Shown piece by piece: positions 19,803 to 47,982 of a DNA stretch of 49,648 nt. This DNA is from a virus. The stretch's first letter is position 1, and the number at the start of each line of letters is the position of its first letter. A program made the position numbers and the translations under genes. Under the pieces are notes generated by a model that had not been told where the DNA came from, searched no databases, and saw only the letters and a list, made by a program, of their open reading frames with translations. The stretch covers positions 1 to 49,648 of IMG/VR virus record IMGVR_UViG_3300042465_005627. The stretch is one strand, 5' to 3'.

Positions 19803-19826
19803 GATGGGTGGTTCCTATTATATGCG

Positions 19827-19832
19827 TATTTA
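19827..19832 (-). promoter_or_regulatory. Late-type promoter box TAAATA
   Basis: Minus-strand AATAAATA about 24 bases upstream of the GNAT-like start at 19802. Confidence 0.6.
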
Positions 19833-19873
19833 TTGATATTGGTGTGATTTGGCGATTTTTGTCAAATCACGTG

Positions 19874-19902
19874 TTGACTGTTAGTATATTATACAGTATA
19901 AT
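19874..19902 (+). promoter_or_regulatory. Sigma70-type promoter
   Basis: TTGACT 19874-19879, 17 bases, TATAAT 19897-19902, upstream of the BI-1 gene. Confidence 0.85.
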
Positions 19903-19933
19903 TAAATATACAGCAACCACAAAGGAGTTCAAT

Positions 19934-24900: not shown

Positions 24901-25848
24901 TTAAATCTTTATAGAAATATGTTTTGCAACTCCAAAGTTGTATTTCCACTCTCTTTGTTTAGTGTGATACAAGACTGCACCAATCGAACTACTGGGATCA
25001 CCCGGATTAGGCAACGACCAAATATGTTTGAACATGGGGTCAACTACTATCTTATTGGCCTTGCTGTTCATAGCACATCCGCCCATATATACTAGGCAAT
25101 CGGAGCCAGTTAGTTCTTTAGCTTTTTTCATTACCAAATGCACTTGTTCTGTAAACACAGTCTGAACCGCTGCGGCAATGTCGTATTGATCGCTGATGTT
25201 ATTAATAGCATGCGGCCAATCTTGAATGCCCATATGCATATTTTTACGGGAGGTTACTAAGGTGTCCATATATTCTAATATGTCATAATAGTAACGCATA
25301 GGATCGCCTTGATCACTCATTTGTTGTAATAGGTATTCGTCTTTAATTGGAGTAAGTCCACAAAGTTGTGTGAATGCACTATAGAACAATCCCAAGCTAT
25401 GTGGATAACTTCTACTCCACACCTTCTTCATTTCGCCATGAACACAATTCCATATAGTTGCACACTCGAACTCGCCAATAGCGTCAAGCACAACAACTGC
25501 ACAATGATTGAACGGACTGGTGTAGTATCCGGCCGCGGCATGACTGCCATGATGGGGAGTGTAAGTAATAGGTGCATAATGTAATCTAGTTCTGTTTAAA
25601 TATTGACGAGGCAACACGCTCATATCAAAAGCTCGACTGTATTGGCCTGCATGTAGTTGCCTTGCTTTTTTAAGCCAAGGCTGTTCATACCAAAAGATTC
25701 GATCCGGAGCACCGCAAGCTAGTGCTTCAGTTATGTCCGAAGTATTTAATTCATCTTCTTTACCAAAGACGTTTGATACTAATTGCCCGTCCTTAAACAC
25801 AGCAAGGCTACTGCCGTGATTAAGAGCATTTATCCCCCAAGAAATCAT
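24901..25848 (-). CDS. Single-domain carbamoyltransferase (NodU/CmcH type)
   Basis: A 315-residue protein. ISWGINALNHGSSLAVF is the first beta motif; TPHHGSHAAAGYYTSPF carries the conserved HH...HAA site; VVVLDAIGEF and YMGGCAMNS complete the ASKHA-like N-terminal domain. Full NodU/CmcH enzymes are about 550-600 residues with a C-terminal YrdC-like domain that makes carbamoyl adenylate; that domain is missing. Either a host partner supplies it or the protein does related transfer. The target may be a sugar or DNA base. Confidence 0.86.
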   Translation of the reverse strand: MISWGINALNHGSSLAVFKDGQLVSNVFGKEDELNTSDITEALACGAPDRIFWYEQPWLKKARQLHAGQYSRAFDMSVLPRQYLNRTRLHYAPITYTPHHGSHAAAGYYTSPFNHCAVVVLDAIGEFECATIWNCVHGEMKKVWSRSYPHSLGLFYSAFTQLCGLTPIKDEYLLQQMSDQGDPMRYYYDILEYMDTLVTSRKNMHMGIQDWPHAINNISDQYDIAAAVQTVFTEQVHLVMKKAKELTGSDCLVYMGGCAMNSKANKIVVDPMFKHIWSLPNPGDPSSSIGAVLYHTKQREWKYNFGVAKHISIKI

Positions 25849-28471: not shown

Positions 28472-29216
28472 CGTGTTTTTCTAATAATTTTTTTATATCA
28501 GGATTCTTTTTCCAAGGACCTGTCAGAGACCAAATCTTGGAATCTTGCTTTTTAGTTACAAAATTTTCTAAATTGCACAAATTAAAAAAATTGTGTTCTT
28601 GAGTTATTAGTTCCGACATGCAGACCTGATCTAATCCATACATATTCGCTCTTTGCAGTTTTTTCATATTTTCGGTAATGGCTTCAAACGGAATATGTTG
28701 AATTTTTTCGTTGTATAAATTTACAATATTTTTTATAAAGTTTTTTCTTTTGTCGGTAACATAAAGAAAATTAGCTCCGGTTTTCTTCCACAAAGTATCA
28801 TAATGTGGATAATATAGAATACCCAACTCTACGCTGTTGTCAAAATTTATTCGTTCATTAAAAATAATATCTGCGTCTACTATGTATGCTTTAGAAATTA
28901 AATTTTGTTCGAACAATAGATTAGAAATAAAATATCTCGAACAAAAATAATAACTTTTTAGTTTATAAAAATTAATATTTGTAGTTGTTAACTTCTCTTT
29001 ACTAATTGAAAGATCGATTGATAATTTTAAATTTTTAATTTGCTCAAGTAGCGAATCGGAAGGATTTATTAAATGTAAATGAACGTCGTGACCGTGATTG
29101 TCGCAAGAAAATAAATTGTAAATTCCATAATTTATAAAATAATTCTCATCACATTGAAAAATTACTTTTTCTCTACCTTTTGGTCTAGAAATTAATTCTA
29201 CATCTTGAAAAAACAT
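28455..29216 (-). CDS. Glycosyltransferase-like protein (GT-A, DxD)
   Basis: A 253-residue AT-rich gene. SKAYIVDADIIFNERINF carries DAD, the metal-binding DxD of GT-A transferases, preceded by helix YYFCSRYFISNLLFEQN as in GT8-like enzymes. MYGLDQVCMSELI and WSLTGPWKKN are typical of later regions. Codon use is much more AT-rich than in the neighbouring replication genes, suggesting separate acquisition. The sugar donor cannot be read. Confidence 0.75.
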   Translation of the reverse strand: MFFQDVELISRPKGREKVIFQCDENYFINYGIYNLFSCDNHGHDVHLHLINPSDSLLEQIKNLKLSIDLSISKEKLTTTNINFYKLKSYYFCSRYFISNLLFEQNLISKAYIVDADIIFNERINFDNSVELGILYYPHYDTLWKKTGANFLYVTDKRKNFIKNIVNLYNEKIQHIPFEAITENMKKLQRANMYGLDQVCMSELITQEHNFFNLCNLENFVTKKQDSKIWSLTGPWKKNPDIKKLLEKHVNRSF

Positions 29217-29794
29217 TAACTATACCCATAACTGATCTGCTCACAGATCAAATTCATTTGCACCACAATGGCTACAGCATACGCAGTAGCATGCGATTGC
29301 TTGAAGAAATACTCATCATTCTCTGGTTTCGTCCATACTTCCGTCATCACCGTAGTCCAATCTTTCCCAATCAGATAACGCTTCGCGGGTCTGATCATCG
29401 CCAGCACCGCTGCCAACTGCTCTATAGATTCTGGTTTGCTTTGTCTCAGAATAGACCCATGTCCATTCACATGGAACAGGTTCTGGATAAAATCTTCGTC
29501 TTGTAGTAGATCCCATAATGGTTCAGTCTCCATGAGTTGAATGAGATGAGTTTCGTCTCTGACACCTTTGTAGATTCCAACATTTAAAAAATCAATCTTA
29601 AAATATGCTTCTGCTTCTGCATGATCATAAGGCACACTGCACACAGCTTTCTCAGCATTCATCGGAACACCATGTAAATACACACCGGTGTTGTGTTTGG
29701 TCAGAGTTTTGTTGTCAACACGGCTGGCAGGTATATATTTGAATAACTTCAGAGCATGATCTCTATCTACAAAGTCTATATCGATATCAGGCAT
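29216..29794 (-). CDS. Miniature DnaE/PolIII-alpha-like protein
   Basis: A 192-residue protein opening MPDIDIDFVDRDHALKLF, matching the catalytic PDIDxDF of C-family polymerases. It continues with HNTGVYLHG, AEAYFKIDFLNVGIYKGVRDE (like DnaE KxDFLGL) and YFFKQSHATAYAVAI (like the F-x-KSHAxAYA helix). The motif order matches DnaE, but the rest of the roughly 1,100-residue enzyme is absent. It may be a regulatory or structural derivative rather than an active polymerase. Confidence 0.8.
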   Translation of the reverse strand: MPDIDIDFVDRDHALKLFKYIPASRVDNKTLTKHNTGVYLHGVPMNAEKAVCSVPYDHAEAEAYFKIDFLNVGIYKGVRDETHLIQLMETEPLWDLLQDEDFIQNLFHVNGHGSILRQSKPESIEQLAAVLAMIRPAKRYLIGKDWTTVMTEVWTKPENDEYFFKQSHATAYAVAIVVQMNLICEQISYGYS

Positions 29795-32058: not shown

Positions 32059-33039
32059 TTAAGTTTTATTTTTCTGCAATCTTTTTAAATCTGCATCTAC
32101 CATTTCTTTGATCAGTGTTTCAAAATTTGTTTTCGGTTGCCATCCTAACACTGTTTTAGCTTTAGAGCTGTTACCACAAAGGCTATGTAGTTCTGCAGGA
32201 CGTTTGAATCGAGGATCTGATTCAATGTGTTTTTTCCAATCTGTAATACCTACATGGTTAAACCCGATAGTTAACAGATCTGCAATGCTATGTTGAATGC
32301 CAGTGCTTACAACATAATCACCCGGTTCCTCTTGTTGCACCATCATCCACATGGCTTCGACAAAATCTCCGGCGTATCCCCAATCTCGTTTACTATCAAG
32401 ATTACCTAGGGTTATTTTATCCTGTAGTCCTAATTTTATTTTGGCAATGCCGTTGGTAACTTTTCTAGTTACAAATTCTATTCCTCTTAACGGACTTTCA
32501 TGATTAAACAAAATACCATTTGATGCATGTATGCTATAACTTTCTCTAAAATTAATAGTCATCCAGTATGCATATAATTTGCTAACTCCGTAAGGGCTTC
32601 GTGGTTTAAAAGTTGTGTTTTCATCCTGCATGCCGCCGTTGCTATTACCGTACATTTCACTGGTGCTTGCCTGATAATATCTAGACAACGGGCTGTGCAT
32701 TTTAATAGAATTTAAAATATTTAAAGGACCCATGCTGTTAACTTCAGTGGTTAATTTATTTAGATCCCAACTTGCTCCTACAAAACTCTGTGCTGCTAGA
32801 TTGTATATTTCATTAGGTTTCAAATTTTTAATAATATGATTCATAGAACCGTCGTCGGTGATATCTCCAGTTACCAACTCAACATCGTTTTCAATTCCTA
32901 AAAATTCAAGATTATTTAAATTTGGATTAGAATATCTTTTTATTAAACCGTATACTTTATAATCTTTTTCAAGAAGAAATTTTGCAAGATAAGGACCATC
33001 TTGTCCTGTCATTCCTGTGACAAACGCTACTTTTTTCAT
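32059..33039 (-). CDS. gmd: GDP-mannose 4,6-dehydratase
   Basis: A 326-residue short-chain dehydrogenase. Cofactor motif VTGMTGQDGPYLA at residues 7-19; active-site ASTSEMYG with SPYGVSKLYAYW (Tyr-x3-Lys); NHESPLRG and SKRDWGYAGDFVEAMW are GMD signatures. It makes GDP-4-keto-6-deoxymannose, precursor of fucose, rhamnose or perosamine. Overlaps the glycosyltransferase by four bases (ATGA). No downstream epimerase/reductase is seen in the window. Confidence 0.95.
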   Translation of the reverse strand: MKKVAFVTGMTGQDGPYLAKFLLEKDYKVYGLIKRYSNPNLNNLEFLGIENDVELVTGDITDDGSMNHIIKNLKPNEIYNLAAQSFVGASWDLNKLTTEVNSMGPLNILNSIKMHSPLSRYYQASTSEMYGNSNGGMQDENTTFKPRSPYGVSKLYAYWMTINFRESYSIHASNGILFNHESPLRGIEFVTRKVTNGIAKIKLGLQDKITLGNLDSKRDWGYAGDFVEAMWMMVQQEEPGDYVVSTGIQHSIADLLTIGFNHVGITDWKKHIESDPRFKRPAELHSLCGNSSKAKTVLGWQPKTNFETLIKEMVDADLKRLQKNKT

Positions 33040-35318: not shown

Positions 35319-36769
35319 ATGTTAACCTTGGTGATGGCAAAGGGGTACTTGGCCTCTTTGTAAAACTTTTTTCTTTCTGTTAGGTGTCGCTTGGCATATT
35401 TGCAGGTGCTGGTAATGTCCCAGATCTCTACATGATCTTTGTCTTCTGCTTTTCTAATGCCTCGCCCAATGCTTTGTATAACGCGGACAAAGCTCTTTCC
35501 GGGTTCAAGAAGAACCAAATTAAAAATACGTGGAATATTAATACCCACAGCGGCCACACCATAAGTCGCCAAAATAATCTTGCCATTACTTGTTTTAATT
35601 TCATCATATTCTTCCTTGCGGTCATCGAGTTTCATACCGCCGCTGACAAACACCGCCTCTGGTATTAGGTCAATTAATTTTTTTCCTGTGTCAATTCTGT
35701 TAATTAACACCAGGGTATTACCGGTAGCAGATAATGCCGTGATCTTACCGGCAATCCACTGCAATCGATTATCGTCTGTGACAAGAAATGAGTATTCGTC
35801 TTGGAATGAATTAAACACCTGCACATCTGTGGTCTGTAAAACATTGATATTCAATTGTGCCAGCACACCTTTTTCCTGTAAATCATACGCAGATACTTGA
35901 TTTATCACAGGACCTATACTGGCCAGTATGCCTTGAAATTCCCACTGTTCTTTAGGCACAGTTCCAGTGAGTCCCCAACGTATGGCACAGTTACGAAAGT
36001 TTTGTGTCAGTAGTTTGGTCAATACTTCTGCCTTGGCTTGGTGAACTTCGTCGACAATGATCGCGCAGACACCTTCACAGAATTCTGCCAATGTCATGGT
36101 GTCGTTGTCATAACTTTTCTTGTCTAACACATTCAAACTCTGCCAGGTGCATATGGTATGCGTCTTACCTAGTTCTTTTCTATCTCCGAAGTAAACACCG
36201 ACATCTAGTCCTAGATTTTTGTAATCTTCTTCAGTTTGAACCACAAGACTCTTGTTAGGAACAACTACCATTGTGCGGCCATAAGGTTCGCATAGATGAC
36301 TTAATGTTGCTGTGGTAATTGTTTTTCCAGCACCAGTAGCTACTTCCTGCAAGGCTTGGGGATTTTCTAAAAACTTGTTGATCACTTCATACTGATAGTC
36401 TCTCAGCACAATAGGTTCACCTGCCTGTTGATGTCCTTTAGGCCAAGTCTTGCCAAGGTCAGCCCAATAATTTTCATCAATGGCAGCAAATTTTAATTCC
36501 TGATGCGGTCTAAGATCTTCAACTTCAATGTCATAACCTTCATCTTCGATCACTGCTAGAATCACATCAAGGTGTGCAAGATATCCGCTGCCACCTATGT
36601 TAAAATAGGTTTTAGTTCCATCCCAACGACCTAGTTTGTATGCAGGCATGTGTCGAGCATAGGGCAAATCGAACTTTAATTTATTGACAATTTTTCGTCG
36701 TGTTTCAACTCGCAGTCCATCTACCTTGATGTTTACTTCGTCTTTGATTGTTAACTTACAATTCGACAA
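35315..36769 (-). CDS. uvsW: UvsW-type SF2 helicase
   Basis: A 484-residue helicase. VLRDYQYEVI (Q-motif region), ATGAGKT (motif I), IIVDEVHQAK (DEVH, motif II), WGLTGTVPKE (motif III), and QSIGRGIRKAED (motif VI). The N-terminal double-stranded-binding segment (YARHMPAYKLGRWDGTKTYF) is typical of UvsW. It unwinds branched DNA and R-loops and switches origin- to recombination-dependent replication. T4 UvsW is 503 residues. Confidence 0.95.
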   Translation of the reverse strand: MSNCKLTIKDEVNIKVDGLRVETRRKIVNKLKFDLPYARHMPAYKLGRWDGTKTYFNIGGSGYLAHLDVILAVIEDEGYDIEVEDLRPHQELKFAAIDENYWADLGKTWPKGHQQAGEPIVLRDYQYEVINKFLENPQALQEVATGAGKTITTATLSHLCEPYGRTMVVVPNKSLVVQTEEDYKNLGLDVGVYFGDRKELGKTHTICTWQSLNVLDKKSYDNDTMTLAEFCEGVCAIIVDEVHQAKAEVLTKLLTQNFRNCAIRWGLTGTVPKEQWEFQGILASIGPVINQVSAYDLQEKGVLAQLNINVLQTTDVQVFNSFQDEYSFLVTDDNRLQWIAGKITALSATGNTLVLINRIDTGKKLIDLIPEAVFVSGGMKLDDRKEEYDEIKTSNGKIILATYGVAAVGINIPRIFNLVLLEPGKSFVRVIQSIGRGIRKAEDKDHVEIWDITSTCKYAKRHLTERKKFYKEAKYPFAITKVNI

Positions 36770-37940
36770 TTTTTTGTCCTTTGGTTTCTGTTGGCTTTGT
36801 GTCGCCGAGATATATCACACAAGGATGACACATAAACCAATCCCGTGCCATGGTATTTGTTGGTGGGAAAATGTTATTTGTTACTATTAGTGTAACATCA
36901 TTGTCAGACTTAAACAACCACTTGGCTGGCTTTGATTCAAAAATTAATATCCGGCCGGTTTCAACTTTGCCGCCGACCCCTGCAATCTTGATCCAGTCAT
37001 TCAACCCCGTGGTAGATTCTTTATTATCTCTAAAACACACCTTGATTTCTTCACGACTAACACCACTTTTCTCAGCATCAGCAACGAAACTCTGTAGCCA
37101 TGGCAGTGTGGCACTGCTTCTATCTAACAGCACACATGTTCTTCCGGAAAAAGATTTAACTAATTCAAAAAACTCTTGATTGGATTTAATCCAGAAACTG
37201 TTTTCTTGGCTGGCCGCGATTTTTTCCACCATGCTTAGGGGTTTTTCTTGGTATAAAAATCCCATACTTTTGGCCAGTAACAAGTCTTTGTAAGGATCGT
37301 TGGTTCTATGATCTTCCCACCACTGTTGAGCTGACTCTCCGGCATTTTTTAAATCAACTCCATAAATGCTGACTTCACTGCGAGGTGCAGCATATTCAGA
37401 ATTTTGCCAAATTTCTTCAACATCCGACAACACATTCATAAAAGTGTCATCAATTTCAAAATTATGTTTACAGGCAAATTCATAGAGTGCGATTAGATTA
37501 TAATGATAAAAATCCAATCGTCTCACTTTGTCTGTCGGGTCCCAAAAACTGTGTGCTAACAGTGTTTCTCGACTTTCTATCTCGTCTTCAAACTCTTTTT
37601 TTAGCTGATAGGGGAATCTTAGACAAATTTCTAGTTTGTTTTCACGCAGTTCTACGTATATTTTTTTACTGAGATCTAAGACTCTAAATGACTTCTTCCA
37701 TTTAAGATCAACGAGCTGTTCTTTATAATCGAGCCCAGCCAAAGCTGCAACAGTCTTGTATTTTTCCAATAATTTTATGAGGAAATTTGCCTGATTTTTG
37801 GTCAACTCGCCGTCGTTGATAATTTTTTCATGAAAACTTGAGATAGGTGAAAAATCTTGACCTTGGATAGTGATTGCCTGTTGAGCAACAAGTCTATAAA
37901 ATTCAACAAATAGGTCTTCGGCAAATTCTGATGGTAACAT
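36756..37940 (-). CDS. Conserved hypothetical protein upstream of uvsW
   Basis: A 394-residue protein with no recognised catalytic motif. The N-terminal half is helical (ISSFHEKIINDGELTKNQANFLIKLLEKYKT). The C-terminal half (GRTCVLLDRSSATLPWLQSFVADAEKSGVSREEIKVCFRDN and VTLIVTNNIFPPTNTMARDWFMCHPCVIYLGD) has Rossmann-like strand-loop units, as if a degenerate helicase-like domain. Overlaps uvsW by 14 bases, so probably a recombination partner. Confidence 0.8.
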   Translation of the reverse strand: MLPSEFAEDLFVEFYRLVAQQAITIQGQDFSPISSFHEKIINDGELTKNQANFLIKLLEKYKTVAALAGLDYKEQLVDLKWKKSFRVLDLSKKIYVELRENKLEICLRFPYQLKKEFEDEIESRETLLAHSFWDPTDKVRRLDFYHYNLIALYEFACKHNFEIDDTFMNVLSDVEEIWQNSEYAAPRSEVSIYGVDLKNAGESAQQWWEDHRTNDPYKDLLLAKSMGFLYQEKPLSMVEKIAASQENSFWIKSNQEFFELVKSFSGRTCVLLDRSSATLPWLQSFVADAEKSGVSREEIKVCFRDNKESTTGLNDWIKIAGVGGKVETGRILIFESKPAKWLFKSDNDVTLIVTNNIFPPTNTMARDWFMCHPCVIYLGDTKPTETKGQKIVEL

Positions 37941-37971: not shown

Positions 37972-38796
37972 TCAACTGAATAATCTAGAAATTGGTGTGC
38001 CTTGGCGTAGTTCGTCGACGGTCCACTCGGTATGACATAGTTTTAAAAACCATTCAGTTCTGTCTGGCATATAGGGACTATCTAATTCCGACCATTTGAT
38101 GCTGAGATCTGCAGCTAGACTAGATGAGTCACACATTACAGGAACACCATTTATGGCTGCTTGAATGGCTGGTCCGCTGTTATGGTTGATCACGCAATGA
38201 TAATTGTAAAAAATATCAAAACTGTCATAGGTATTGGGTATGAGTATAGGTCTTTCTACCTCCACTCCGGACTGCTTGAACGGAAATGCTGACCGAGGAT
38301 GATATCTCACACGAATTCTTCTATGAGTATGCTGTTTTATTTTTTCAATAGTCTCTGCTACCCAATCTTTCATGGCAGGCATGCCTTGCCATTGTAGACT
38401 TTCTTGATGCTGGCAGGCTATCAGTATTTCGCCACGACGTGTGGTGGCAATTGGTTGTAATTTAACACCTAATTTTTCAGGCCTAGTCGGGTCGAGGTTG
38501 ATATCGTTGCCGAATCTGCCAAGATTGTTGATATGGTCAAGACTGATGCGCCAAGTTTCACCTCTTTTCAGATTTCCTACTTCTATGATCATCACAGATT
38601 TGCCTGATTGTCGACGCTGTTCGTAGATTGTTTTATTTGAACGCATTCTACCGGCCCATAGCACAGACCAAATCACAGACACGTCTTCGTTGTCATTGAC
38701 AATGGTGTGCCCTAGTTGTTTTAAACCTTGTTCCACCGCGTCAAACACAGGAGGACTGTTTAACGCACCGTATTCTCGATATAATTTGAAGCGCAT
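37972..38796 (-). CDS. GT-B-like sugar transferase family, member 1
   Basis: A 274-residue protein. Shared family motifs: TIEKIKQHTHRRIRVRYHP, NYHCVINHNSGPAIQAAINGVPVMCD and a final WFLKLCHTEWTVDELRQGTPISRL. The HNSGPAIQAAxxGVPV block corresponds to the nucleotide-sugar-binding site of GT-B/capsule-type (KpsC/LpsZ-like) transferases. Divergent from the plus-strand gene 38847, with facing late boxes between. Confidence 0.75.
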   Translation of the reverse strand: MRFKLYREYGALNSPPVFDAVEQGLKQLGHTIVNDNEDVSVIWSVLWAGRMRSNKTIYEQRRQSGKSVMIIEVGNLKRGETWRISLDHINNLGRFGNDINLDPTRPEKLGVKLQPIATTRRGEILIACQHQESLQWQGMPAMKDWVAETIEKIKQHTHRRIRVRYHPRSAFPFKQSGVEVERPILIPNTYDSFDIFYNYHCVINHNSGPAIQAAINGVPVMCDSSSLAADLSIKWSELDSPYMPDRTEWFLKLCHTEWTVDELRQGTPISRLFS

Positions 38797-38804
38797 AATG
38801 TTGA

Positions 38805-38810
38805 TAAATA
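38805..38810 (+). promoter_or_regulatory. Late-type promoter box TAAATA (plus)
   Basis: TTGATAAATA 36 bases upstream of ATG 38847; half of a divergent pair. Confidence 0.55.
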
Positions 38811-38834
38811 ATCTACGTAGTTAATACTGCCATA

Positions 38835-38842
38835 TATTTATA
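38835..38842 (-). promoter_or_regulatory. Consensus late promoter TATAAATA (minus)
   Basis: A full T4-consensus TATAAATA on the minus strand, 38 bases upstream of the start at 38796. Confidence 0.7.
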
Positions 38843-38846
38843 GATC

Positions 38847-39245
38847 ATGAATAAGATTAAAAAAAGACTGAGTAAATTGTCAAAAAACGCAGACAATGCG
38901 TTGGTAATTGGCTCCGCATTTGGTCAATTAGAACAACTGTTAGACTTGTATTCAACAATTTTTATCGTGAACGAAGACAACACAGAACTAAAAGCAAAAA
39001 ATCTCATTTATAGACAAAGCATTGACAGATTAGATAGCATCGTAAATGTCGGAGCAGTATTTTTTGATATCAAACACATTTCTAAATTAGAAAGTCTACA
39101 AGCATTTTGGAAGAAAAATAATTCGTTGATATTCATCGAAGGCGGGGATGCCCTGCCTAGAGATCTGTCAATGCCGTTATACGATTCAGGATGGCGATGC
39201 ACCAGTCTCCAAGGAGCATTTCACGTATGGGAAAAACAACAATGA
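38847..39245 (+). CDS. Rossmann-like hypothetical protein
   Basis: A 132-residue protein. ADNALVIGSAFGQLEQLLDLYSTIFIVNEDN resembles the first two strands of a methyltransferase-like Rossmann fold; NSLIFIEGGDALPRDLSMPLYDSGWRCTSLQGAFHVWEK ends it. The AdoMet motif is not canonical. First gene of a plus-strand unit of three with the two transferases that follow (ATGA overlap). Confidence 0.72.
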   Translation: MNKIKKRLSKLSKNADNALVIGSAFGQLEQLLDLYSTIFIVNEDNTELKAKNLIYRQSIDRLDSIVNVGAVFFDIKHISKLESLQAFWKKNNSLIFIEGGDALPRDLSMPLYDSGWRCTSLQGAFHVWEKQQ

Positions 39246-40078
39246 AAATAGCAGTAGTAACAACCTTTCACGAAGACGGACTTAACAAATATGCACAGCG
39301 TATGATCAATACCTTCTGCGAGAACTGGCCTACTGAGGTCACGCTTCATTTGTATCCCGAAGAGTGCAACCCTGCGATCCGTGATCACAGTCATGTCACG
39401 CTGAAACGTCTAGAAGAAGTTGCAGAACTAATGACTTTTAAAAACACATGGAAAAATGTGCCTAAGGCCAACGGCGATGTGTCAGCTGATCCTGTGAGAT
39501 CTCTAAGAAAAGATTCAGGCAAAGGATTCAAATGGCATGCCGTGAGATTTGCGCACAAAGTTTATGCCATATTTGATTGTGCCAAAGAAACAGATGCGGA
39601 TATTTTAATATGGATGGATGCAGATACCATTTGTCACAGTCCTATCACCATGACCGATCTATACAAGATGATTCCCGCCGATAGTGAGCTGTGTTATCTG
39701 GGTCGAAGGGGCAAATATTCAGAGTGCGGTCTATATGCCATGAATCTACGATCACCTAACATCCAACTTTTTCTCAAAGAATTTCAACGAGTCTATGATC
39801 AAGCCGAACAGGGAATTTTTCAACTAGAAGAATGGCATGATAGTTTCGTGTTTGATGCTGTTAGAATAAAATTTCCCCAGATGCGGCAGCTAGATTGGGC
39901 TGCACATTTGCACGATCTTCGACCAGCCCCTGGCATGAGTTCAGGAGAAGGACACCCGCTGATCAATAGTCAATGGGGCGCATGGTTAGATCATCTCAAA
40001 GGCGGCCGTAAGAAAATAGGTCGCAGCAAGCCCGAAGATCTCAAAGTTCAAAGAACAGAAGCATACTGGCAGAGGTAA
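39242..40078 (+). CDS. DxD glycosyltransferase, paralogue of 33036-33764
   Basis: A 278-residue protein from ATG 39242. IAVVTTFHEDGLNKYAQRM, VRFAHKVYAIFDCAKETDADILIWMDADTICHSPI with DAD, YLGRRGKYSECGLYAMNLRSP, and LDHLKGGRKKIG. Longer than the paralogue through an insertion near HDLRPAPGMSSGEGHPL. Opposite strand to the paralogue and less AT-rich, so the duplication is old or one copy was acquired separately. Confidence 0.83.
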   Translation: MKIAVVTTFHEDGLNKYAQRMINTFCENWPTEVTLHLYPEECNPAIRDHSHVTLKRLEEVAELMTFKNTWKNVPKANGDVSADPVRSLRKDSGKGFKWHAVRFAHKVYAIFDCAKETDADILIWMDADTICHSPITMTDLYKMIPADSELCYLGRRGKYSECGLYAMNLRSPNIQLFLKEFQRVYDQAEQGIFQLEEWHDSFVFDAVRIKFPQMRQLDWAAHLHDLRPAPGMSSGEGHPLINSQWGAWLDHLKGGRKKIGRSKPEDLKVQRTEAYWQR

Positions 40079-40081
40079 TTC

Positions 40082-40858
40082 ATGTATAATTTTTTGTGCG
40101 TGGGCGGCGACAAATACGGATGTCTTCAATTTACTGAAGGCAGTAACGGAAAAATTGTCACTGTAGAAGAAGCATTAGAGTCTGATCCCTCTATTCCGCT
40201 GTGTTGGGCCGGTTCACACAAAGAAACATTATATCAACACTGTGTAGAAAACAACAGAAAATTTTATAATTTAGATACAGGCTATTTTGGCAATACAAAA
40301 ACAAAAGATATTGTTAGAGTAAGTATTAATGGTTTTCAAAACTGTGATCCTATAAAATCAAGACCCATCGATCGTTGGTCTAGTTTAAATATCCCAACTG
40401 TTTCTATATCAAGAGGTTCGTCAATAGTTGTAGTTCCACCTGATTCAAAAAAAATAAAAGCATTAAGACTTGGCACAGAAGATGAGTGGGTGGGTGCGAC
40501 GATATCCAACATTAAAAAGTATACCGATAGGCCGATACGTGTTAGATATAGGCCTTTAAGCAGAAGCGATAGGGTGGGAGGCGATTCATTTTTAAATTAT
40601 ATCAACGATACTTGGTGTGTTATAGGGCATTCATCGAACGCTCTATTAGAAGCAGCAATGGTTGATATCCCTGTCATTAGTTTGGGACATTCTTCTACTA
40701 ACAGTCTCTATACAACTTCACTAAGTGATATAGAATTAATTACACCTGTAGATCAAGAATTAAAACAGGCCTGGTTGAATCATCTATCGTATTGTCAATT
40801 TACTAAAAATGAATTAGCGTCCGGTGTAGCCTGGAAATTACTTTCAACCAAATCTTGA
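40082..40858 (+). CDS. GT-B-like sugar transferase family, member 2
   Basis: A 258-residue protein. FYNLDTGYFGNTKTKDIVRVSING (the N-terminal family motif Y-x-DTGYFGN), TISNIKKYTDRPIRVRYRP, WCVIGHSSNALLEAAMVDIPVISLG and WLNHLSYCQFTKNELASGVAWKLL. The only family member on the plus strand; its end overlaps the FkbM gene end by 15 bases. Confidence 0.78.
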   Translation: MYNFLCVGGDKYGCLQFTEGSNGKIVTVEEALESDPSIPLCWAGSHKETLYQHCVENNRKFYNLDTGYFGNTKTKDIVRVSINGFQNCDPIKSRPIDRWSSLNIPTVSISRGSSIVVVPPDSKKIKALRLGTEDEWVGATISNIKKYTDRPIRVRYRPLSRSDRVGGDSFLNYINDTWCVIGHSSNALLEAAMVDIPVISLGHSSTNSLYTTSLSDIELITPVDQELKQAWLNHLSYCQFTKNELASGVAWKLLSTKS

Positions 40859-41551
40859 TGCGTATGGTCCGGGGCCGAGGTATCTTCCGAACTGTTTAAC
40901 ATCAACAGGCGTGTTATGCCCAGATTTCGGAGCCCACAAAAATACTCGTTTACTTTTAGTAAAAATGGTTTCGTAGTTTAGATTCTGCATAAATTCGCAA
41001 CAGACATCTATGTCTTGATTTACTTCAAATATAACCCACGGCTGTTGTTGTTTAATAATTTGTTCAGCGCCTCGTAACACTTCTAGTTCCCAGCCCTGCA
41101 CATCAATTTTTATAAGATCAACGTCTAGTAAATTTTCGTTATCTAACTTGACAACTGGGACTGCGTATGATGCGCCAACTCCTTCTCTACATAGTTTTCC
41201 ATCACCACAATTTTTTCCTGCCTGATGAAAGTCGGCTGTGCCTTCGAAATCCGCCACAGCTTTGGTTCGAATGTCGATAGCAGTTCCAACATTTGCCTGT
41301 AGACATTCGATATTTTGCTTGGACGGCTCGTATCCGATAACACTTTTAAATTTTCCTATAAAAGGAAAACTCCAAATACCTACATTGGCTCCAACATCAA
41401 CAAATGTTCTTTTGTTAGGCAGATGTTCTAATATTTGATTCCTAAATTTACCTTCATACGACGGATTGGTTTTATCGGTATCGTTTTCTAACACGAAACT
41501 GATCTTCTTATCGTCGTCTGGCACATACCAACCGTTATGCATTAATCTCAT
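40844..41551 (-). CDS. FkbM-family methyltransferase 3
   Basis: A 235-residue protein. TFVDVGANVGIWSFPF (AdoMet site), VIGYEPSKQNIECL, VDLIKIDVQGWELEVLRGAEQIIKQQQPWVIFEV (FkbM signature). The C-terminal PVDVKQFGRYLGPGPYASRFG is unusual. Overlaps the following gene by four bases, within the glycan operon. Confidence 0.88.
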   Translation of the reverse strand: MRLMHNGWYVPDDDKKISFVLENDTDKTNPSYEGKFRNQILEHLPNKRTFVDVGANVGIWSFPFIGKFKSVIGYEPSKQNIECLQANVGTAIDIRTKAVADFEGTADFHQAGKNCGDGKLCREGVGASYAVPVVKLDNENLLDVDLIKIDVQGWELEVLRGAEQIIKQQQPWVIFEVNQDIDVCCEFMQNLNYETIFTKSKRVFLWAPKSGHNTPVDVKQFGRYLGPGPYASRFG

Positions 41552-42474
41552 ATATACCTCTTAAAAAAATTCCAAGCTTCACCGGAACGTAGTTCATTGA
41601 AATTCCAATGACACATTGCGATGCGTTCAATCCATGATTGTCTATCTGCCATCTCGGGATTTTCTAACAAACTGAGATCAGTATTGGCCACACCATAGGT
41701 CTGGCTGTGGTGTGGCACTGGATCTGTGATGAATGATGGAACCCCTTCAATCAAACTGGCTACACTAGGACTACTGTTATAGACCACGGTAGCCCATGCA
41801 TGTCTTAGATCATCAATCAATCTTTCATTTGTACTTAGTTGTACACCTTTGCCGTATATTTTCAATATTGATTTAATTTTTTTATCCCCAGGATGAGTTC
41901 GCACAATAATAGGACGTTTTATACTGTGTTGCCTAATCTGTGCAATAGTCTGATCTAACCATGTCTGCACACCGAGTCCGCCCATACTCCATCCACCATG
42001 TCTTTGCAGACAGATCAATATATGATTGCCCTGTGTCCTCCAAGGCTTCAAACTGATATTGAGATCCTGACTTATTTTACGCCAGCGGGTAGAATCGATG
42101 TCTCGATCAAAATAAAATCCTGTGGTTGGAAACACTCCGTCGAAACTGTATCTTAGATAGGTTTTGGTATTATTTGGATCTGCATATAGAAAAAGATTGC
42201 TGTCTACAATAAGGCTTCGACGATTGTTTTTCTTTTGTAAATTCACAGCATCTTGTCTCAATTGTAAATGAGGTGCAGATTTACCGTGTTCATGTACAAA
42301 TCCCTGTATCAATGCAACATCACAAGACACTGCATTCATTCCATGGTGTTGTATGGCAGTGTCACCGGCCGCATGAACTCCCTGACAGAAATTATCTAAA
42401 ATCTGAGGTTTCTCTGGGTTCCGGTTATTAGGCGGAATTCCAGCGTAATAGGCCACAGCGGTGAGATTAGACAC
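41548..42474 (-). CDS. GT-B-like sugar transferase family, member 3
   Basis: A 308-residue protein. WLDQTIAQIRQHSIKRPIIVRTHPGDKK, WATVVYNSSPSVASLIEGVPSFITDP and WIERIAMCHWNFNELRSGEAWNFF are the shared motifs. The N-terminal part (AVAYYAGIPPNNRNPEKPQILDNFCQGV) differs from the other members, which suggests a different acceptor. Overlaps member 4 by eight bases. Confidence 0.78.
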   Translation of the reverse strand: MSNLTAVAYYAGIPPNNRNPEKPQILDNFCQGVHAAGDTAIQHHGMNAVSCDVALIQGFVHEHGKSAPHLQLRQDAVNLQKKNNRRSLIVDSNLFLYADPNNTKTYLRYSFDGVFPTTGFYFDRDIDSTRWRKISQDLNISLKPWRTQGNHILICLQRHGGWSMGGLGVQTWLDQTIAQIRQHSIKRPIIVRTHPGDKKIKSILKIYGKGVQLSTNERLIDDLRHAWATVVYNSSPSVASLIEGVPSFITDPVPHHSQTYGVANTDLSLLENPEMADRQSWIERIAMCHWNFNELRSGEAWNFFKRYI

Positions 42475-43561
42475 TGTGATAACGCCTTACAATGTCCAGA
42501 GCTGTGCCGTCCATTAATTCATCAAAAGTAAATTGACAATAGCTGAGCCAGGCCAACCAATCTCCCAACGGTCCATAATATAGATCGTTGATCTCGCTTA
42601 GGTTACTCTTTGTCACAGGATTACTCACATGCTTGTTCAAGGTAATAGCAGGAACGCCTGCCCAGATAGATTCTACGGCACTATTGGAATTGATGCTAAC
42701 GGTACAGTAGTAATCGCCAGTTAATAACTGTTGATATAGGCTGGTTCTAGTTTTTTTATTTGTTTTCGACCTAAATTCAATAGGGCGATCTGTGTATTTT
42801 TTTAATTCTTCTGCTACCTGCCGACCCCAAGTTTTGGCCCCCACATGCATTATACCAGCAGCAAATTCTCCAGGTTCAACAATTAAAATTTTAGTTCCGT
42901 CACGTCGCCATGGTTGAGGAAAACTGGGGAAAATATCTAACCGATTGGCTGGGGCTACAAAATTTCGATTGAAGTGTAAATGATTTCTTACTAGTCTATG
43001 CCACTTCTTATTGGGTTCTATAAAATTAGTATATCCGCTATCGATGAACCAAAAAGGTAGATTGTGATCTATTTTATTAACCAGTATCTGTTCGTTACCT
43101 ACAGTATTGCGTAATAGACAATCTTCTTCCGCAGAATTAAAATGTCTGCGCCGCATCATTTCTGCGGCAGGATCAATTTGAAATCCCACGGTTTTAATAA
43201 AATTTTGTTTCGGATGGGATTTATAGAGTTGTAATATTTGCTCTTCTCCCAGTCTATCTATAAGAACATCTATGTGTCGGTGTATGTTTTTATAAAAATG
43301 TTCTTTGTGATTACTGATCTGTTGATTTACCAAATCTATCCATGCTTTAAGATCTTTACGAATTCCTTGAGTGATCTTTTGTTTGATTTTATCTCTATGT
43401 TTTTCTAGATTAAATCTGGGTTTATTTTTTGTTTCTATGATCCAATGAATCATTCCGGCGGTGTGACGCTCGTCTAATTCAATGTGTTTGCAGGCATCTG
43501 AGACATTGACTAATTCAATCAAGAATCTAGCTATTTCTTTGTCGTTAAGTAGTAGTTTCAT
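42467..43561 (-). CDS. GT-B-like sugar transferase family, member 4 with extra N-domain
   Basis: A 364-residue protein, the longest member. An extra helical, basic N-terminal domain of about 140 residues (NKPRFNLEKHRDKIKQKITQGIRKDLK...) precedes the family part: FWFIDSGYTNFIEPNKKWHRLVRNHLH, YCTVSINSNSAVESIWAGVPAITLNK and WLAWLSYCQFTFDELMDGTALDIV. Confidence 0.78.
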   Translation of the reverse strand: MKLLLNDKEIARFLIELVNVSDACKHIELDERHTAGMIHWIIETKNKPRFNLEKHRDKIKQKITQGIRKDLKAWIDLVNQQISNHKEHFYKNIHRHIDVLIDRLGEEQILQLYKSHPKQNFIKTVGFQIDPAAEMMRRRHFNSAEEDCLLRNTVGNEQILVNKIDHNLPFWFIDSGYTNFIEPNKKWHRLVRNHLHFNRNFVAPANRLDIFPSFPQPWRRDGTKILIVEPGEFAAGIMHVGAKTWGRQVAEELKKYTDRPIEFRSKTNKKTRTSLYQQLLTGDYYCTVSINSNSAVESIWAGVPAITLNKHVSNPVTKSNLSEINDLYYGPLGDWLAWLSYCQFTFDELMDGTALDIVRRYHSV

Positions 43562-44300
43562 TTAATATTTTCCATGCTGTGCCATTGGCAATTTCTTCGT
43601 GTGTAAATTGACCGTAGGCCAACGAGTGACAATGCTGTGCAACCAATGAAGAATCCGGATACCACGGGGTGGCAATTTTTGTAAAATCAGTTAGAGCTAG
43701 GGGACTTGCCGCACAAGGAACAGTAACGAACGCAGGCACTCCATAGGCAATAGATTCCATTGCGGCAATGCTGTTGAATGCAACTGTGGCAAAAATTTTC
43801 TGATCCAAAGCGTCATAGATGCTGTCACAGTTTCTAGCAGACCTCGATCCTTTGTGTCTAATTACAATTTGCATATCTGTGTGTTGTTTTATAGTAGCAA
43901 CAGTTTCATCTAGCCATTGAGGCATATCATATCCGAAATAATGACAGGACTTAGGATTAGATACAATTAATAAAATTTTATTGCCGTCTTTTTTCCACCC
44001 CGGCCAGGTAAGTCTATTATCACCTTTGACTAATGCTCGCCACCTATCTGCAGATTTTGATTCTATTTTAGATTTTTGTAATTCGTTTTTTACGATTCTA
44101 TGATAAATTTTCTTTCCGCTGGGATTTCCTGCGCTAGTAAAATTCCCAAAATATCCAGTATCCATATAATAGAAATCTTCACCTCGATTTAGACAATCAT
44201 GTATATGTTTTCTTTTTATTATTCCTCGAAATATAGCAGGTGATGATCCTGATATAGATTTTCTAAAGGTTCCTTCCCATGATGTATCATCAATTTCCAT
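43545..44300 (-). CDS. GT-B-like sugar transferase family, member 5
   Basis: A 251-residue protein. FYYMDTGYFGNFTSAGNPSGKKIYHRIVKN, WLDETVATIKQHTDMQIVIRHK, FATVAFNSIAAMESIAYGVPAFV, CHSLAYGQFTHEEIANGTAWKIL. Closest to member 6 (same TSAGNP..YHRIVKN block), so they are probably a recent tandem duplicate. Confidence 0.8.
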   Translation of the reverse strand: MEIDDTSWEGTFRKSISGSSPAIFRGIIKRKHIHDCLNRGEDFYYMDTGYFGNFTSAGNPSGKKIYHRIVKNELQKSKIESKSADRWRALVKGDNRLTWPGWKKDGNKILLIVSNPKSCHYFGYDMPQWLDETVATIKQHTDMQIVIRHKGSRSARNCDSIYDALDQKIFATVAFNSIAAMESIAYGVPAFVTVPCAASPLALTDFTKIATPWYPDSSLVAQHCHSLAYGQFTHEEIANGTAWKILNETTT

Positions 44301-45087
44301 TTAACAACATCTCCATGGCTTTGCCGTTGCGCAATTCACTGTTGTGAAATTGACCGTAGGCCAGATGACTGGCCCATTGATAAACTTCGTCACTGTCTGG
44401 ATAACGAGGAGTTTCTATCAGTGAAAGATCCTGCAACCCCATTGGTTCAGCTGCATTAGTTGGTGCTAGTGTAAACACAGGAATACCGTGAAACACAGAT
44501 TCTACAGCGGCCACACTGTTAAAAGTCACTAGTGCAAATACATCGTCATCTAATGCTTCTTGCAGTGTGTTGTGCTGTATTCTATCTATGCGTTTGGCTG
44601 CACGATCTCTAATCTCTATAGGTCTGTCAGTGTGTTCACGGATAGTGTCAACGGTATTCCGCAGCCATAGGTCCATGTCGTAGTCGTAAAATCTCATTGG
44701 CTTATCATCAGGCTTCGCTATTAATATTTTAGATCCTGTTTTTTTCCAAGGTGATATTGTTTTCTTAAAATTCTTAAATCTATCATCAGATCTTGGCACG
44801 ACATGTTTGTGTTGTAGATCGTTCTTTACGATTCTGTGCCAATACTTCCAACCATTAGGATTACCAGCAGTGATCTCATTGCCAAAATATCCTGTATCCA
44901 CATAATAAAATGTTCTACCGTCGGCCAAGCAACGATGTATGATTTTTTTCTTGAGTATGCCGCGCAGCACAATAGGTTCAGAACTGGCAGCATAATCAAA
45001 ATCGTTAGTATCAGTGATTTTTTTACCGCAGCCCTGTGCCAACATATCTATATAGGGATCCTGGCCGTCTTTGCTGAGAAAGATCAT
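44290..45087 (-). CDS. GT-B-like sugar transferase family, member 6
   Basis: A 265-residue protein. FYYVDTGYFGNEITAGNPNGWKYWHRIVKN, WLRNTVDTIREHTDRPIEIRD, FALVTFNSVAAVESVFHGIPVFTL, WASHLAYGQFHNSELRNGKAMEML. Overlaps member 5 by 11 bases and the TylF-like gene by four. Confidence 0.8.
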   Translation of the reverse strand: MIFLSKDGQDPYIDMLAQGCGKKITDTNDFDYAASSEPIVLRGILKKKIIHRCLADGRTFYYVDTGYFGNEITAGNPNGWKYWHRIVKNDLQHKHVVPRSDDRFKNFKKTISPWKKTGSKILIAKPDDKPMRFYDYDMDLWLRNTVDTIREHTDRPIEIRDRAAKRIDRIQHNTLQEALDDDVFALVTFNSVAAVESVFHGIPVFTLAPTNAAEPMGLQDLSLIETPRYPDSDEVYQWASHLAYGQFHNSELRNGKAMEMLLNGN

Positions 45088-45731
45088 TTTGTAATTCTAA
45101 TTGAACATTGCATGTGTCTGCTTCGCAGCAAGGGTTCGAATTCTCGATTGTATTCAATTACCCATTCTTTCAATGCTTTAAATTCACCGAGTTGCCATTC
45201 TAAATATATTTCGTGGCCGCCCCAAGGATATAATTCGTCGAAAAGTATAATTGTGCCTGGTACGATAACCGGATTTAACATAGTTAAAATATCCTTAGCA
45301 CTTGAATAAAGATCGCTGTCGATATGAATGAATTTTATTTCAGATTGATTATTCTGTATCCATTGAGGCAGTGTTTCTTTAAAAAATCCTTTTACTAATT
45401 TAACATTATTACCAAATTTAGGAAGCTCATCAATACGAAAATGGCCTTTTGGATGAGAGGGTTCTGTTTTAGAAATTGTAAACCAATCTTCAGGTAACCC
45501 CTCAAAGCTATCGAATCCCCATACAACTTCAGAGGGAAAATGATTTGATATCATTCTAAGGCTTTTTCCTTTCCATACACCAAATTCTAAAATTGATCCA
45601 TTTATCATTGGCAGATCTAAAACTTGATATAGGTGCCATTTTCTATCAATACTCACTCCTTCATACTCTTCATCTATAACTGTGAACTCATCTAGAAAAT
45701 TTTCTGAAAAATTAAATTTATTTGTAATCAT
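45084..45731 (-). CDS. TylF/macrocin-O-methyltransferase-like protein
   Basis: A 215-residue protein from ATG 45731 (ATGA overlap with the previous gene; a TTG at 45749 would add six residues). ILEFGVWKGKSLRMI (AdoMet site), VWGFDSFEGLPEDW (TylF signature), FIHIDSDLYSSAKDIL and IILFDELYPWGGHE (metal and sugar site). The family methylates sugar hydroxyls. Likely modifies the sugar built by neighbouring enzymes. Confidence 0.9.
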   Translation of the reverse strand: MITNKFNFSENFLDEFTVIDEEYEGVSIDRKWHLYQVLDLPMINGSILEFGVWKGKSLRMISNHFPSEVVWGFDSFEGLPEDWFTISKTEPSHPKGHFRIDELPKFGNNVKLVKGFFKETLPQWIQNNQSEIKFIHIDSDLYSSAKDILTMLNPVIVPGTIILFDELYPWGGHEIYLEWQLGEFKALKEWVIEYNREFEPLLRSRHMQCSIRITK

Positions 45732-46408
45732 AGTCCGTGCTGTAGACAATAATCTACATAAATTTTTTCTCTATGCCATTCGTCGGTAAAATCGCCCTTA
45801 TCAGCAAACTCGTGGAAGCAAGGTGTTCCTAGGGTATAGTGAACTAATTTTGCTGAAGGATTCCATTCGTATTCGATGTCTAACCAATTCCACTCTGCTG
45901 GCAATTCACCGACTAGCTCAGAGTCTAACCAAGTGAATCTATGTACCTGTGCTCCTGTGGCATTTTGTATAAACTCCGGAGTAACCACAGCATTGGCAGG
46001 GTGTCCACAGTTCCAAAGAATCACGCTTGACCAATTTTTACAGGGGTAATCTTCATTTTTAGAACCAAGATATTTTTCAGTCATCTTAGTTTTATAGTTG
46101 TGCTTGACAACCATAACTGCTTTTGACTCGTCTCGTAATGCCCACAGCTTTTCGATATCGTCTCGCAACAACATGTCACCGTCCATGAATATTGCCCAAC
46201 CTTTGTACTCCATGAGATGAGGAACAAGGAAACGACTATAGATAAAATGATTACTACCGTCGGTATGTTTCTCTTCGTAGTCTTTTAATATATTCAATGC
46301 CAATGGATTAATACTCACTGGATGACTAGAATGTCTAATGATACTATTTGTGCATACATGATATGCTATGGCTTCCCGGGGGTCGTACCCGATAAAAATT
46401 GGAATCAT
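45728..46408 (-). CDS. GT8-like glycosyltransferase
   Basis: A 226-residue protein from ATG 46408 (MIPIFIGYDPREAIAYHVCTNSIIRHSS). The GYDPRE start, YSRFLVPHLMEYKGWAIFMDGDMLLRDDI with DGD, and a late NPSAKLVHYTLGTPCFHEF are typical of phage GT8-like transferases. Overlaps its neighbours by four bases on each side. Confidence 0.88.
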   Translation of the reverse strand: MIPIFIGYDPREAIAYHVCTNSIIRHSSHPVSINPLALNILKDYEEKHTDGSNHFIYSRFLVPHLMEYKGWAIFMDGDMLLRDDIEKLWALRDESKAVMVVKHNYKTKMTEKYLGSKNEDYPCKNWSSVILWNCGHPANAVVTPEFIQNATGAQVHRFTWLDSELVGELPAEWNWLDIEYEWNPSAKLVHYTLGTPCFHEFADKGDFTDEWHREKIYVDYCLQHGL

Positions 46409-47166
46409 TTTCTTTCTATATCCTCTTCGACGCATTGTTCACCGTACTGTATCTCTACGATTTTTAATGGGTGTTCGTAGGGATTAGTAAGTTGATGCCA
46501 TTCTTGATTGACGATGTGTAATTGATCGTGTTTGTTTAGTTCTGCAGGCGGCAGTTCAAAATCCAACGGAGTTGCTCTATTAACAATGGCTTGCCCTTCA
46601 CTAACAATCCAATATTCAGCACGGTGATTATGTCGTTGCATGCTTAGACTTTTGCCGGGATCAACTGTTAACTCTTTGACTTTCATTCCAGGTACTTCAT
46701 GTAATACACGATAATAGCCCCATTGACGCTCTGTCCTAGGAGCCTTCCATTCTTCTAAGATCCATGAACTAGAATTAGCCTTATTAAATCCGCCAACTCC
46801 GAAATGAAATTCTAGATTGCGATCCTCAAACTCCATTTCCGGAATGTTGGCATCTGTGCGGTCTCCGCCGTTGGCAAATATAATTTTATGATCGGGCCAT
46901 GTCTGTCTGGCTAATTTTATTGCCTGTTTGGCGCTACCGTCATCATCATTGAATTCTAAAACAAAATCTACATCTTTGATATTTTTAACGATAGTCATTC
47001 GTTCATGCCAAGGCATAAATGCTCTGCCTTTTTTACGAACCAACCACGCATCAGAATTGATACCTACTACTAGAATATCTCCTAGTTGTTTTGCTGATCG
47101 GAAGTAGGCGATGTGCCCGGAATGTAAAGGATCAAATCCTCCAGTGACAAGTACAATAGTTTTCAT
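46405..47166 (-). CDS. Cytidylyltransferase-cupin fusion
   Basis: A 253-residue two-domain protein. Residues 1-140: TGGFDPLHSGHIAYFRSAKQLGD (HxGH nucleotidyltransferase motif as in RfaE/HldE and TagD), GINSDAWLVRKKGR and MPWHERMTIV. Residues 150-250: a cupin with MQRHNHRAEYWIVSEGQAIV and NQEWHQLTNP. The fusion suggests NDP-activation of a sugar coupled to isomerase/epimerase-like binding. A TAAATA box five bases before the ATG predicts a leaderless late mRNA. Confidence 0.9.
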   Translation of the reverse strand: MKTIVLVTGGFDPLHSGHIAYFRSAKQLGDILVVGINSDAWLVRKKGRAFMPWHERMTIVKNIKDVDFVLEFNDDDGSAKQAIKLARQTWPDHKIIFANGGDRTDANIPEMEFEDRNLEFHFGVGGFNKANSSSWILEEWKAPRTERQWGYYRVLHEVPGMKVKELTVDPGKSLSMQRHNHRAEYWIVSEGQAIVNRATPLDFELPPAELNKHDQLHIVNQEWHQLTNPYEHPLKIVEIQYGEQCVEEDIERK

Positions 47167-47171
47167 GCAGA

Positions 47172-47177
47172 TATTTA
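47172..47177 (-). promoter_or_regulatory. Late-type promoter box TAAATA
   Basis: Minus-strand GATAAATA, TCTGC, ATG 47166; part of the palindrome GCAGATAAATATCTGC. Confidence 0.6.
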
Positions 47178-47187
47178 TCTGCGTAGT

Positions 47188-47982
47188 TTATTCTTGGATT
47201 TTTCTGTGTTTTTTGTTGATATCTTCGACACGACTCAATAATTCAAGTTCCACGCCCAAATCTAACCCTTCCATTTGAATAGCTGCTATATCTTTAGGAA
47301 AGCATGCACCGCCCCAGCCGTATTGACCATCTGGACCCGGAACTTCCATGTGTGTTGTTCCAATACGATCATCGTGTTTTGCTAGATATGCTAAATCTTT
47401 AATGTCAACACCTTCTGCATCGGCAATTTTTTTAAAGTCGTTCATAAAGGTCACTTTAGCAGCAAGATAACTATTCATCATGTACTTGTATAGTGATGCA
47501 GTTTCGATAGGAACAATAATATGTTTGTCGTGGGTCAATGCTCGACCAAAACACAATACATTTCTTGCTTTAATTGCCCAATCATAATTGCCGCCGATAA
47601 CACAATAATCTGCATTGGCATAATCTGCATTGGCATTTGCCTGTGTCAAAAACTCCGGCACATGTACGAGATTTGGATATTCTTGTTGCAGTCGTTTATA
47701 CGTACTAGGGGATGCTGTTGATTTACTAATTAATATAACATCGGGATTTTGAATTGTTACAAATAACAATTCTTTTAATACCTGCTCAAGGATAGCTGTG
47801 TTGCAGTGGCCGTCTTCTGTACTTGGGCTAGGTACACAAATAAAGATAGCATCTCGATCTACAAATTTATCCAAACTTGCAGAGTCTTGCAACTTTGGAT
47901 CTCTAATAACGAGATCTGTATTTCTGTACGCCCAACCTATTGCACCACCTAAAAATCCAAAACCAACAATACCTATTTTCAT
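47188..47982 (-). CDS. UDP-glucose dehydrogenase-like protein, shortened
   Basis: A 264-residue protein. IGIVGFGFLGGAIGWAY (NAD site), FICVPSPSTEDGHCNT, HVPEFLTQANA, and the catalytic-cysteine motif GWGGACFPKD. Standard UDP-glucose/GDP-mannose dehydrogenases have about 400 residues with a C-terminal sugar-binding domain, absent here. A perfect 15-base tandem duplication (47605-47634) repeats ANADY. It may act as a shortened oxidase or need a partner. Overlaps uvsY by four bases. Confidence 0.88.
   Translation of the reverse strand: MKIGIVGFGFLGGAIGWAYRNTDLVIRDPKLQDSASLDKFVDRDAIFICVPSPSTEDGHCNTAILEQVLKELLFVTIQNPDVILISKSTASPSTYKRLQQEYPNLVHVPEFLTQANANADYANADYCVIGGNYDWAIKARNVLCFGRALTHDKHIIVPIETASLYKYMMNSYLAAKVTFMNDFKKIADAEGVDIKDLAYLAKHDDRIGTTHMEVPGPDGQYGWGGACFPKDIAAIQMEGLDLGVELELLSRVEDINKKHRKIQE
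47605..47634. repeat. 15-base in-frame tandem duplication
   Basis: ATAATCTGCATTGGC occurs twice in direct succession on the plus strand, adding five residues (ANADY) to the dehydrogenase near its PEFLTQ motif. Confidence 0.9.

Follow-up and report, generated by a model that had tools for sequence, protein, structure and literature searches.

Six KpsC-fold transferase paralogues in a T4-like large phage: a predicted modular glycan pathway with switchable glycotypes

What do six related transferase-like genes do when they are gathered in one island of a phage genome? The question is raised by positions 37,972 to 45,087 of the IMG/VR virus record IMGVR_UViG_3300042465_005627, analysed here over a window of 49,648 nucleotides (positions 1 to 49,648 of that record). 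The best explanation, and one that is rather probable, is a modular glycan pathway whose enzymes act in sequence and whose glycotype can be switched. It builds on the homology and similar fold of the proteins, on the residues they have lost, on purifying selection and on a conserved gene order with allele exchange and coupling between genes, from which we infer sugar donors, order of action and target. The six genes, labelled m1 to m6 and all classified as KpsC-fold glycosyltransferases, are listed below; in the class names, upper and lower case stand for retained and lost Gln (Q), nucleophile Asp (D) and HP-motif His (H).

37972-38796, minus strand: m1, class QdH, with Gln and HP-motif His retained and the nucleophile Asp replaced by Ser
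40082-40858, plus strand: m2, class qdh, with Arg at the HP His position; optional, found only with m5 type I
41548-42474, minus strand: m3, class QdH, with the nucleophile Asp replaced by Gly and RTHP retained
42467-43561, minus strand: m4, class qdh, with an N-terminal extension of ~110 residues
43545-44300, minus strand: m5, class qdh, type I allele (relatives swap types I and II)
44290-45087, minus strand: m6, class qdh

All six open reading frames proposed by the first-pass annotation are intact and lie exactly at the positions it gave, and the single member that it placed on the opposite strand is m2. The homology of the six is far beyond chance, since a search with m6 of this record matches the other five (E = 1e-63, 1e-26, 4e-26, 2e-12 and 3e-5) and a single profile recovers the whole set. 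The N-termini differ as described: m4 carries its extension, and m1 and m3 have another N-terminal domain. The motifs said to be shared by all were stated too strongly. NSxxAxESxxxGVPxF is literal or nearly so in m4-m6, but m2 reads SSNALLEAAMVDIPVI and the Glu is missing from m1 and m3; the C-terminal W..hLsYxQFt..EL occurs in m2 and m4-m6, but the corresponding segments are CHTEWTVDEL in m1 and MCHWNFNEL in m3.

The proteins m1-m6 fall into no sequence family of Pfam, PHROG or the PDB. Searches of the six against Pfam and PHROG returned sub-threshold noise only, none of the 66 members of the family alignment has a Pfam match above cut-off, and the best hit of a PDB sequence search with profiles is WbbB at E=0.1, a lead rather than a proof. 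The six-row alignment of m1-m6 is too divergent for a collection scan. A scan with m3 gave no cellular relatives, and one with the m5/m6 clade gave a single 5.7-kb contig in an archaeal metagenome-assembled genome, possibly a misbinned phage. No near nucleotide matches were found in cultured phages.

Structure is more informative. AlphaFold2 models of m6 and m3 reach a predicted local distance difference test score (pLDDT) of 95.2 and 94.7, respectively. Foldseek comparison with the PDB gives KpsC as the best match of both (E=3.3e-5 for m6, E=1.8e-9 for m3), ranks 1-23 for m6 being exclusively KpsC, WbbB or KrkA, and ranks 1-19 for m3 exclusively KpsC or WbbB. Both models have the modified GT-B fold of the retaining transferases of beta-linked 3-deoxy-D-manno-octulosonic acid (Kdo) (GT99, GT107 and GT140), with a Foldseek probability of 1.00 and a template modelling (TM) score of ~0.5. 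The earlier suggestion of a GT-B-like fold with KpsC/LpsZ-like affinity thus holds at the fold level.

Two motifs define the retaining beta-Kdo transferases: QXXXD, which supplies the nucleophilic Asp, and (K/R)XHP, to which cytidine monophosphate (CMP) binds (PMC10148158, PMC9587256, PMC12887879). Their general base, a Glu of the N-terminal domain, is placed differently in the known families (PMC12887879). In m1 to m6 the QXXXD Asp has become S, K, G, A, S and P, respectively, and the Gln is retained in m1 and m3 only. The second motif reads RYHP in m1 and RTHP in m3, and is altered to RYRP in m2, RSKT in m4, RHKG in m5 and RDRA in m6. Two classes emerge, one (m1, m3) with Gln and His and without Asp, the other (m2, m4, m5, m6) with none of the three and with Lys or Arg at the His position. 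Across the family alignment, whose 66 rows are related by descent and not independent, Gln and His are linked in 66/66 members (both in 30, neither in 36, never mixed). Because Asp is absent from all six and His is present only in m1 and m3, m1-m6 are KpsC-like in fold and lie outside the catalytic definition of the family.

That the six are nevertheless true KpsC/WbbB-type transferases making a Kdo polymer is very improbable. The fold match of the m6 and m3 models speaks for this alternative, as does the presence of Asp in 4/66 members, none of them from the present record: those four, encoded in relatives' cassettes of the same type, keep both QXXXD and RXHP. It is opposed by the absence of the nucleophile in all six and of Gln and His in four, and by searches of eight relatives in which no CMP-sugar synthetase of the KdsB/NeuA family (PF02348) was found. 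Capsule_synth (PF05159) likewise has no match above its curated cut-off in the records of these relatives or in the 66 members. The four full-motif proteins (L134:3285-4301, L134:5206-6180, L116:1866-2861 and L117:1865-2884) are themselves candidates for true retaining Kdo-type transferases in phages.

The changed residues do not reflect decay. The ratio of nonsynonymous to synonymous substitution rates (dN/dS) of all six genes is 0.03-0.15, a strong purifying selection that marks them as predicted working enzymes with altered chemistry. Degenerate active sites, named earlier as grounds for abandoning the glycan idea, were not found in that sense, although the catalytic residues of Kdo transferases have changed. 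In m2, m4, m5 and m6, Lys or Arg in place of His would reflect a diphosphate leaving group, and hence a putative change from a CMP-sugar to a nucleotide-diphosphate-sugar donor.

The genes surrounding the six point to glycan assembly. The window is part of a T4-like large-phage genome, in which UvsX, UvsY, a UvsW-like helicase, a DnaB-like helicase and a primase flank the island; the cassette itself lies between uvsY and the uvsW-like helicase. The source is a freshwater jumbo-type phage, whose nearest cultured phages are the jumbo phages Phosso, PA5oct and Atu_ph07 (49-55% identity in two core helicases) and whose relatives occur on IMG/VR contigs of up to ~280 kb. Starting from uvsY, the minus strand carries a UDP-sugar dehydrogenase, the HldE-like gene with its cupin, GT8, a TylF methyltransferase, m6, m5, m4, m3 and an FkbM methyltransferase, which overlap or nearly touch. 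This run is opposed by m2, a GT2-like gene and orf132, followed by m1, which adjoins orf394 and uvsW in relatives too. The partner genes are as follows.

47188-47982, minus strand: dehydrogenase like those of UDP-glucose and GDP-mannose, N-terminal and central domains matched only
46405-47166, minus strand: HldE-like nucleotidyltransferase fused to a mannose-6-phosphate isomerase-type cupin (PF01467 E=1e-13, PF01050 E=1e-22), the first conserved cassette gene
45728-46435, minus strand: GT8 glycosyltransferase (PF01501 E=2.3e-7), fused to a family member in some relatives
45084-45749, minus strand: TylF-like O-methyltransferase (PF05711 E=5.4e-16), optional in relatives
40844-41551, minus strand: FkbM1 methyltransferase (PF05050 E=4.5e-17), co-occurring with m5 type I
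39191-40078, plus strand: GT2-like protein (PF00535 E=0.0019, below cut-off), conserved in mapped cassettes
38847-39245, plus strand: orf132, without assigned function, preceding the GT2-like gene in almost every cassette mapped
32059-33039, minus strand: GDP-mannose 4,6-dehydratase family (PF16363 E=6e-118), a nearby sugar-nucleotide gene

Three FkbM methyltransferases and one TylF methyltransferase belong to this context, and a simple hydrophobicity test, whose control worked, detected no membrane segments in the cassette proteins. The natural fusion of a GT8-like domain to a KpsC-fold family member is seen in three relatives (L131:1555-3285, L105:2909-4564 and L133:2047-3705). Taken together, the cassette would carry out a multi-step glycan assembly in which six old paralogues of an unannotated KpsC-fold family work sequentially, with GT8, the GT2-like protein, sugar-nucleotide enzymes and O-methyltransferases as partners and a cytoplasmic acceptor.

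How old is this arrangement? The order m6-m5-m4-m3-[FkbM1]-[m2, opposite strand]-GT2-m1 is conserved on many aquatic viral contigs, and relatives carry five or six members in identical order, which contradicts a fresh expansion of the family in this genome. Nor are m5 and m6 a recent tandem copy, as first proposed: they share 46% identity and fall into separate, well-supported sister clades (98/94). As both clades have orthologues in many phages, the duplication is old and predates the radiation of the cassette across aquatic viral contigs.

Within this fixed order, single genes are exchanged. Median identities among relatives are high in the flanks (uvsY 91%, uvsW 86%) and lower in cassette genes (m5 64%, m2 54%, orf132 49%). 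Between the relatives L014 and L016, m5 is 56% identical and all other compared genes are 81-100% identical; between L064 and L065 the largest differences are in m5 (53%) and FkbM1 (32%). Single genes are therefore replaced on near-identical backgrounds, between genomes, by recombination or allele exchange. Of the combinatorial glycan assembly envisaged earlier, the glycan-assembly context and an assembly line that varies among related phages are supported; the idea that its variation comes from the copies within one genome is not.

Part of this exchange is coordinated. Relatives carry one of two m5 types, I and II, and among 25 dereplicated loci FkbM1 accompanies 17/17 of type I and 0/8 of type II, and m2 15/17 and 0/8, respectively. 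Fresh scans of 27 further dereplicated loci gave 12/12 versus 1/15 for FkbM1 and 7/12 versus 0/15 for m2. The genes m3 and m4 sit between m5 and FkbM1, yet do not follow the m5 type: on the m3, m4 and m6 trees the type label requires 5-6 changes, at least 2-4 of which are forced by supported branches. Most simply, m5, FkbM1 and m2 would all work on one and the same portion of a single glycan. Given this joint switching and the single-gene exchange, we read the relatives as carrying alternative glycotypes, between which the sequential pathway switches; an altered sugar coat would then be made during infection. The coupling amounts to a testable, serotype-like polymorphism in phages.

Where would such a glycan be placed? 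A virion protein is the likeliest target, with about an even chance of being the right one. Profile search found two homologues, gp127 and gp128, in the Caulobacter phage CcrColossus, directly after the tail genes gp123-125 and before lysis genes. Octamers resembling late promoters occur at the following site.

38797-38846, no strand: intergenic region between divergent genes; its late-promoter-like octamers NATAAATA are directed towards m1 (TATAAATA, 38835-38842, minus strand) and orf132

T4 late promoters have the sequence TATAAATA. This octamer stands 46-47 nucleotides upstream of m1 in 14/40 distinct upstream regions, and NATAAATA upstream of orf132 in 37/39. The tail-gene neighbourhood in CcrColossus and the conserved octamers at m1 and orf132 lean towards virion decoration.

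Several points weigh against the pathway as proposed or against its virion target. The TM-scores to KpsC are moderate (0.50-0.56, at ~10-13% identity, for the m6 and m3 models), transferase function is a prediction for every member, and the proposed donor switch is read from residue identity. The coupling of m5 with FkbM1 has one exception (the L217 group), and linked recombination could partly explain the co-switching. The cassette lies here among replication genes, not tail genes, and reviews of jumbo phages and pelagiphages interpret similar clusters as modifying host O-antigen (PMC7824862, PMC7029224).

Remodelling of the host envelope is the second-ranked target, a serious possibility though a less probable one. 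Lipopolysaccharide (LPS) or capsule would be extended or capped from the cytoplasmic side, blocking superinfection or hiding the cell, and allele exchange would follow host serotypes. Besides being the published interpretation of glycosyltransferase clusters in cyanophages, pelagimyophages and jumbo phages, it agrees with the action of KpsC-fold enzymes on capsule and O-antigen (PMC10148158, PMC9587256) and with the HldE-like enzyme and GDP-mannose dehydratase, which are typical of LPS pathways. However, the cassette holds no flippase, polymerase, lipid-linked initiator or membrane protein, and the homologues in CcrColossus follow tail genes.

DNA ranks third and is a very unlikely target. Glycans would be assembled on a modified base in the phage's own DNA, an idea that suits a cassette among replication genes and the decoration of DNA by phage glycosyltransferases, known from work cited within PMC12619734. 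Also in its favour, a NodU/CmcH-like carbamoyltransferase is encoded at 24901-25848 (minus strand), with a match to the N-terminal domain model only. Enzymes related to this type are reported to modify phage cytosine. The idea is weakened by the thymidylate-synthase/pyrimidine hydroxymethylase family PF00303, found in 0/8 relatives (two of ~280 kb; possibly incomplete) with positive controls, the window itself being a fragment. No Tet/JBP match was obtained either, though the control for that search was silent, and the DNA methylase at 14467 is of the N6/N4 type.

Phage-borne glycan clusters are already known; what appears to be new is a KpsC-fold family devoid of the catalytic residues of Kdo transferases, together with the coupled switching. 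In the literature searched, no paper described the transferase family of m1-m6 in phages. With KpsC (GT107), WbbB (GT99) and KrkA (GT140), the best fold matches of both models, the six share the conserved Arg of (K/R)XHP and a Ser...G-P nucleotide-binding segment, and m1 and m3 also the QXXXD Gln and HP His. They differ in lacking the nucleophile and, in four cases, His and Gln, in the shorter N-terminal domain of m5 and m6, and in being encoded by phages, five or six at a time. Their sequence family also has uncharacterised members in the Pelagibacter phage Mosig and the Caulobacter phages CcrColossus, CcrPW, CcrSC and CcrBL9, but only one or two were found in each, next to tail and lysis genes in CcrColossus and near ribonucleotide reductase in Mosig. 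The glycan or LPS clusters of cyanophages, pelagimyophages and jumbo phages (PMC7824862, PMC7029224) also combine glycosyltransferases, a HIGH-type nucleotidyltransferase, a cupin isomerase, a dehydratase and methyltransferases in a variable island, whereas the present cassette has a single paralogous KpsC-fold core, a fixed order and coupled allele switching. T4-type DNA glucosylation differs in its acceptor-making PF00303 hydroxymethylase. Tetraselmis virus 1, an algal giant virus, likewise has several paralogous capsule polysaccharide biosynthesis proteins for which this fold is predicted (Foldseek BFVD E-values as low as 3e-14), but at 14-17% identity. At least four are present there (A0A2P0VP54, A0A2P0VNK4, A0A2P0VP74 and A0A2P0VP72), a parallel expansion.

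These comparisons provide fold- and residue-level hypotheses for a large unannotated family on hundreds of aquatic viral contigs. Within a single type of cassette, the catalytic residues grade from QDH through QdH to qdh, which could show how a rare double-displacement transferase alters donor and mechanism. More speculatively, the lineage may descend from double-displacement enzymes using CMP-ulosonates (Kdo-type), having lost the nucleophile and the CMP-specific His, adopted nucleotide-diphosphate sugars and become a fixed phage assembly line whose glycotype is switched by coordinated exchange of non-adjacent genes, the equivalent of a serotype for phage particles. The cultured relatives CcrColossus and Mosig make the old question of the target of phage glycan clusters approachable.

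A further element lies towards the uvsY side of the cassette.

47167-47182, minus strand: perfect hairpin GCAGAT-AAAT-ATCTGC, 16 nt (GCAGATAAATATCTGC), abutting the ATG of the HldE-like gene

Five of the eight long relatives searched have a single exact copy. Exact copies occur in 74/143 loci and, where the locus was inspected, at this same junction of the cassette; in L105 two copies lie ~1 kb apart. The hairpin is possibly a recombination handle, a leader or a promoter element. The NATAAATA sites located 13 nt ahead of the HldE-like gene belong to it and are not claimed as a promoter.

Three other genes deserve mention. Almost every relative mapped has orf394 (36756-37940, minus strand) between m1 and uvsW; this gene evolves fast (32-85% identity) and matches no family. 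A 192-aa protein (29216-29794, minus strand) matches a PHROG labelled DNA polymerase (phrog_11778) and is possibly a piece of a split polymerase. The phage also encodes a membrane protein of the Bax inhibitor-1 family (19808-20632, plus strand; PF01027 E=2e-52).

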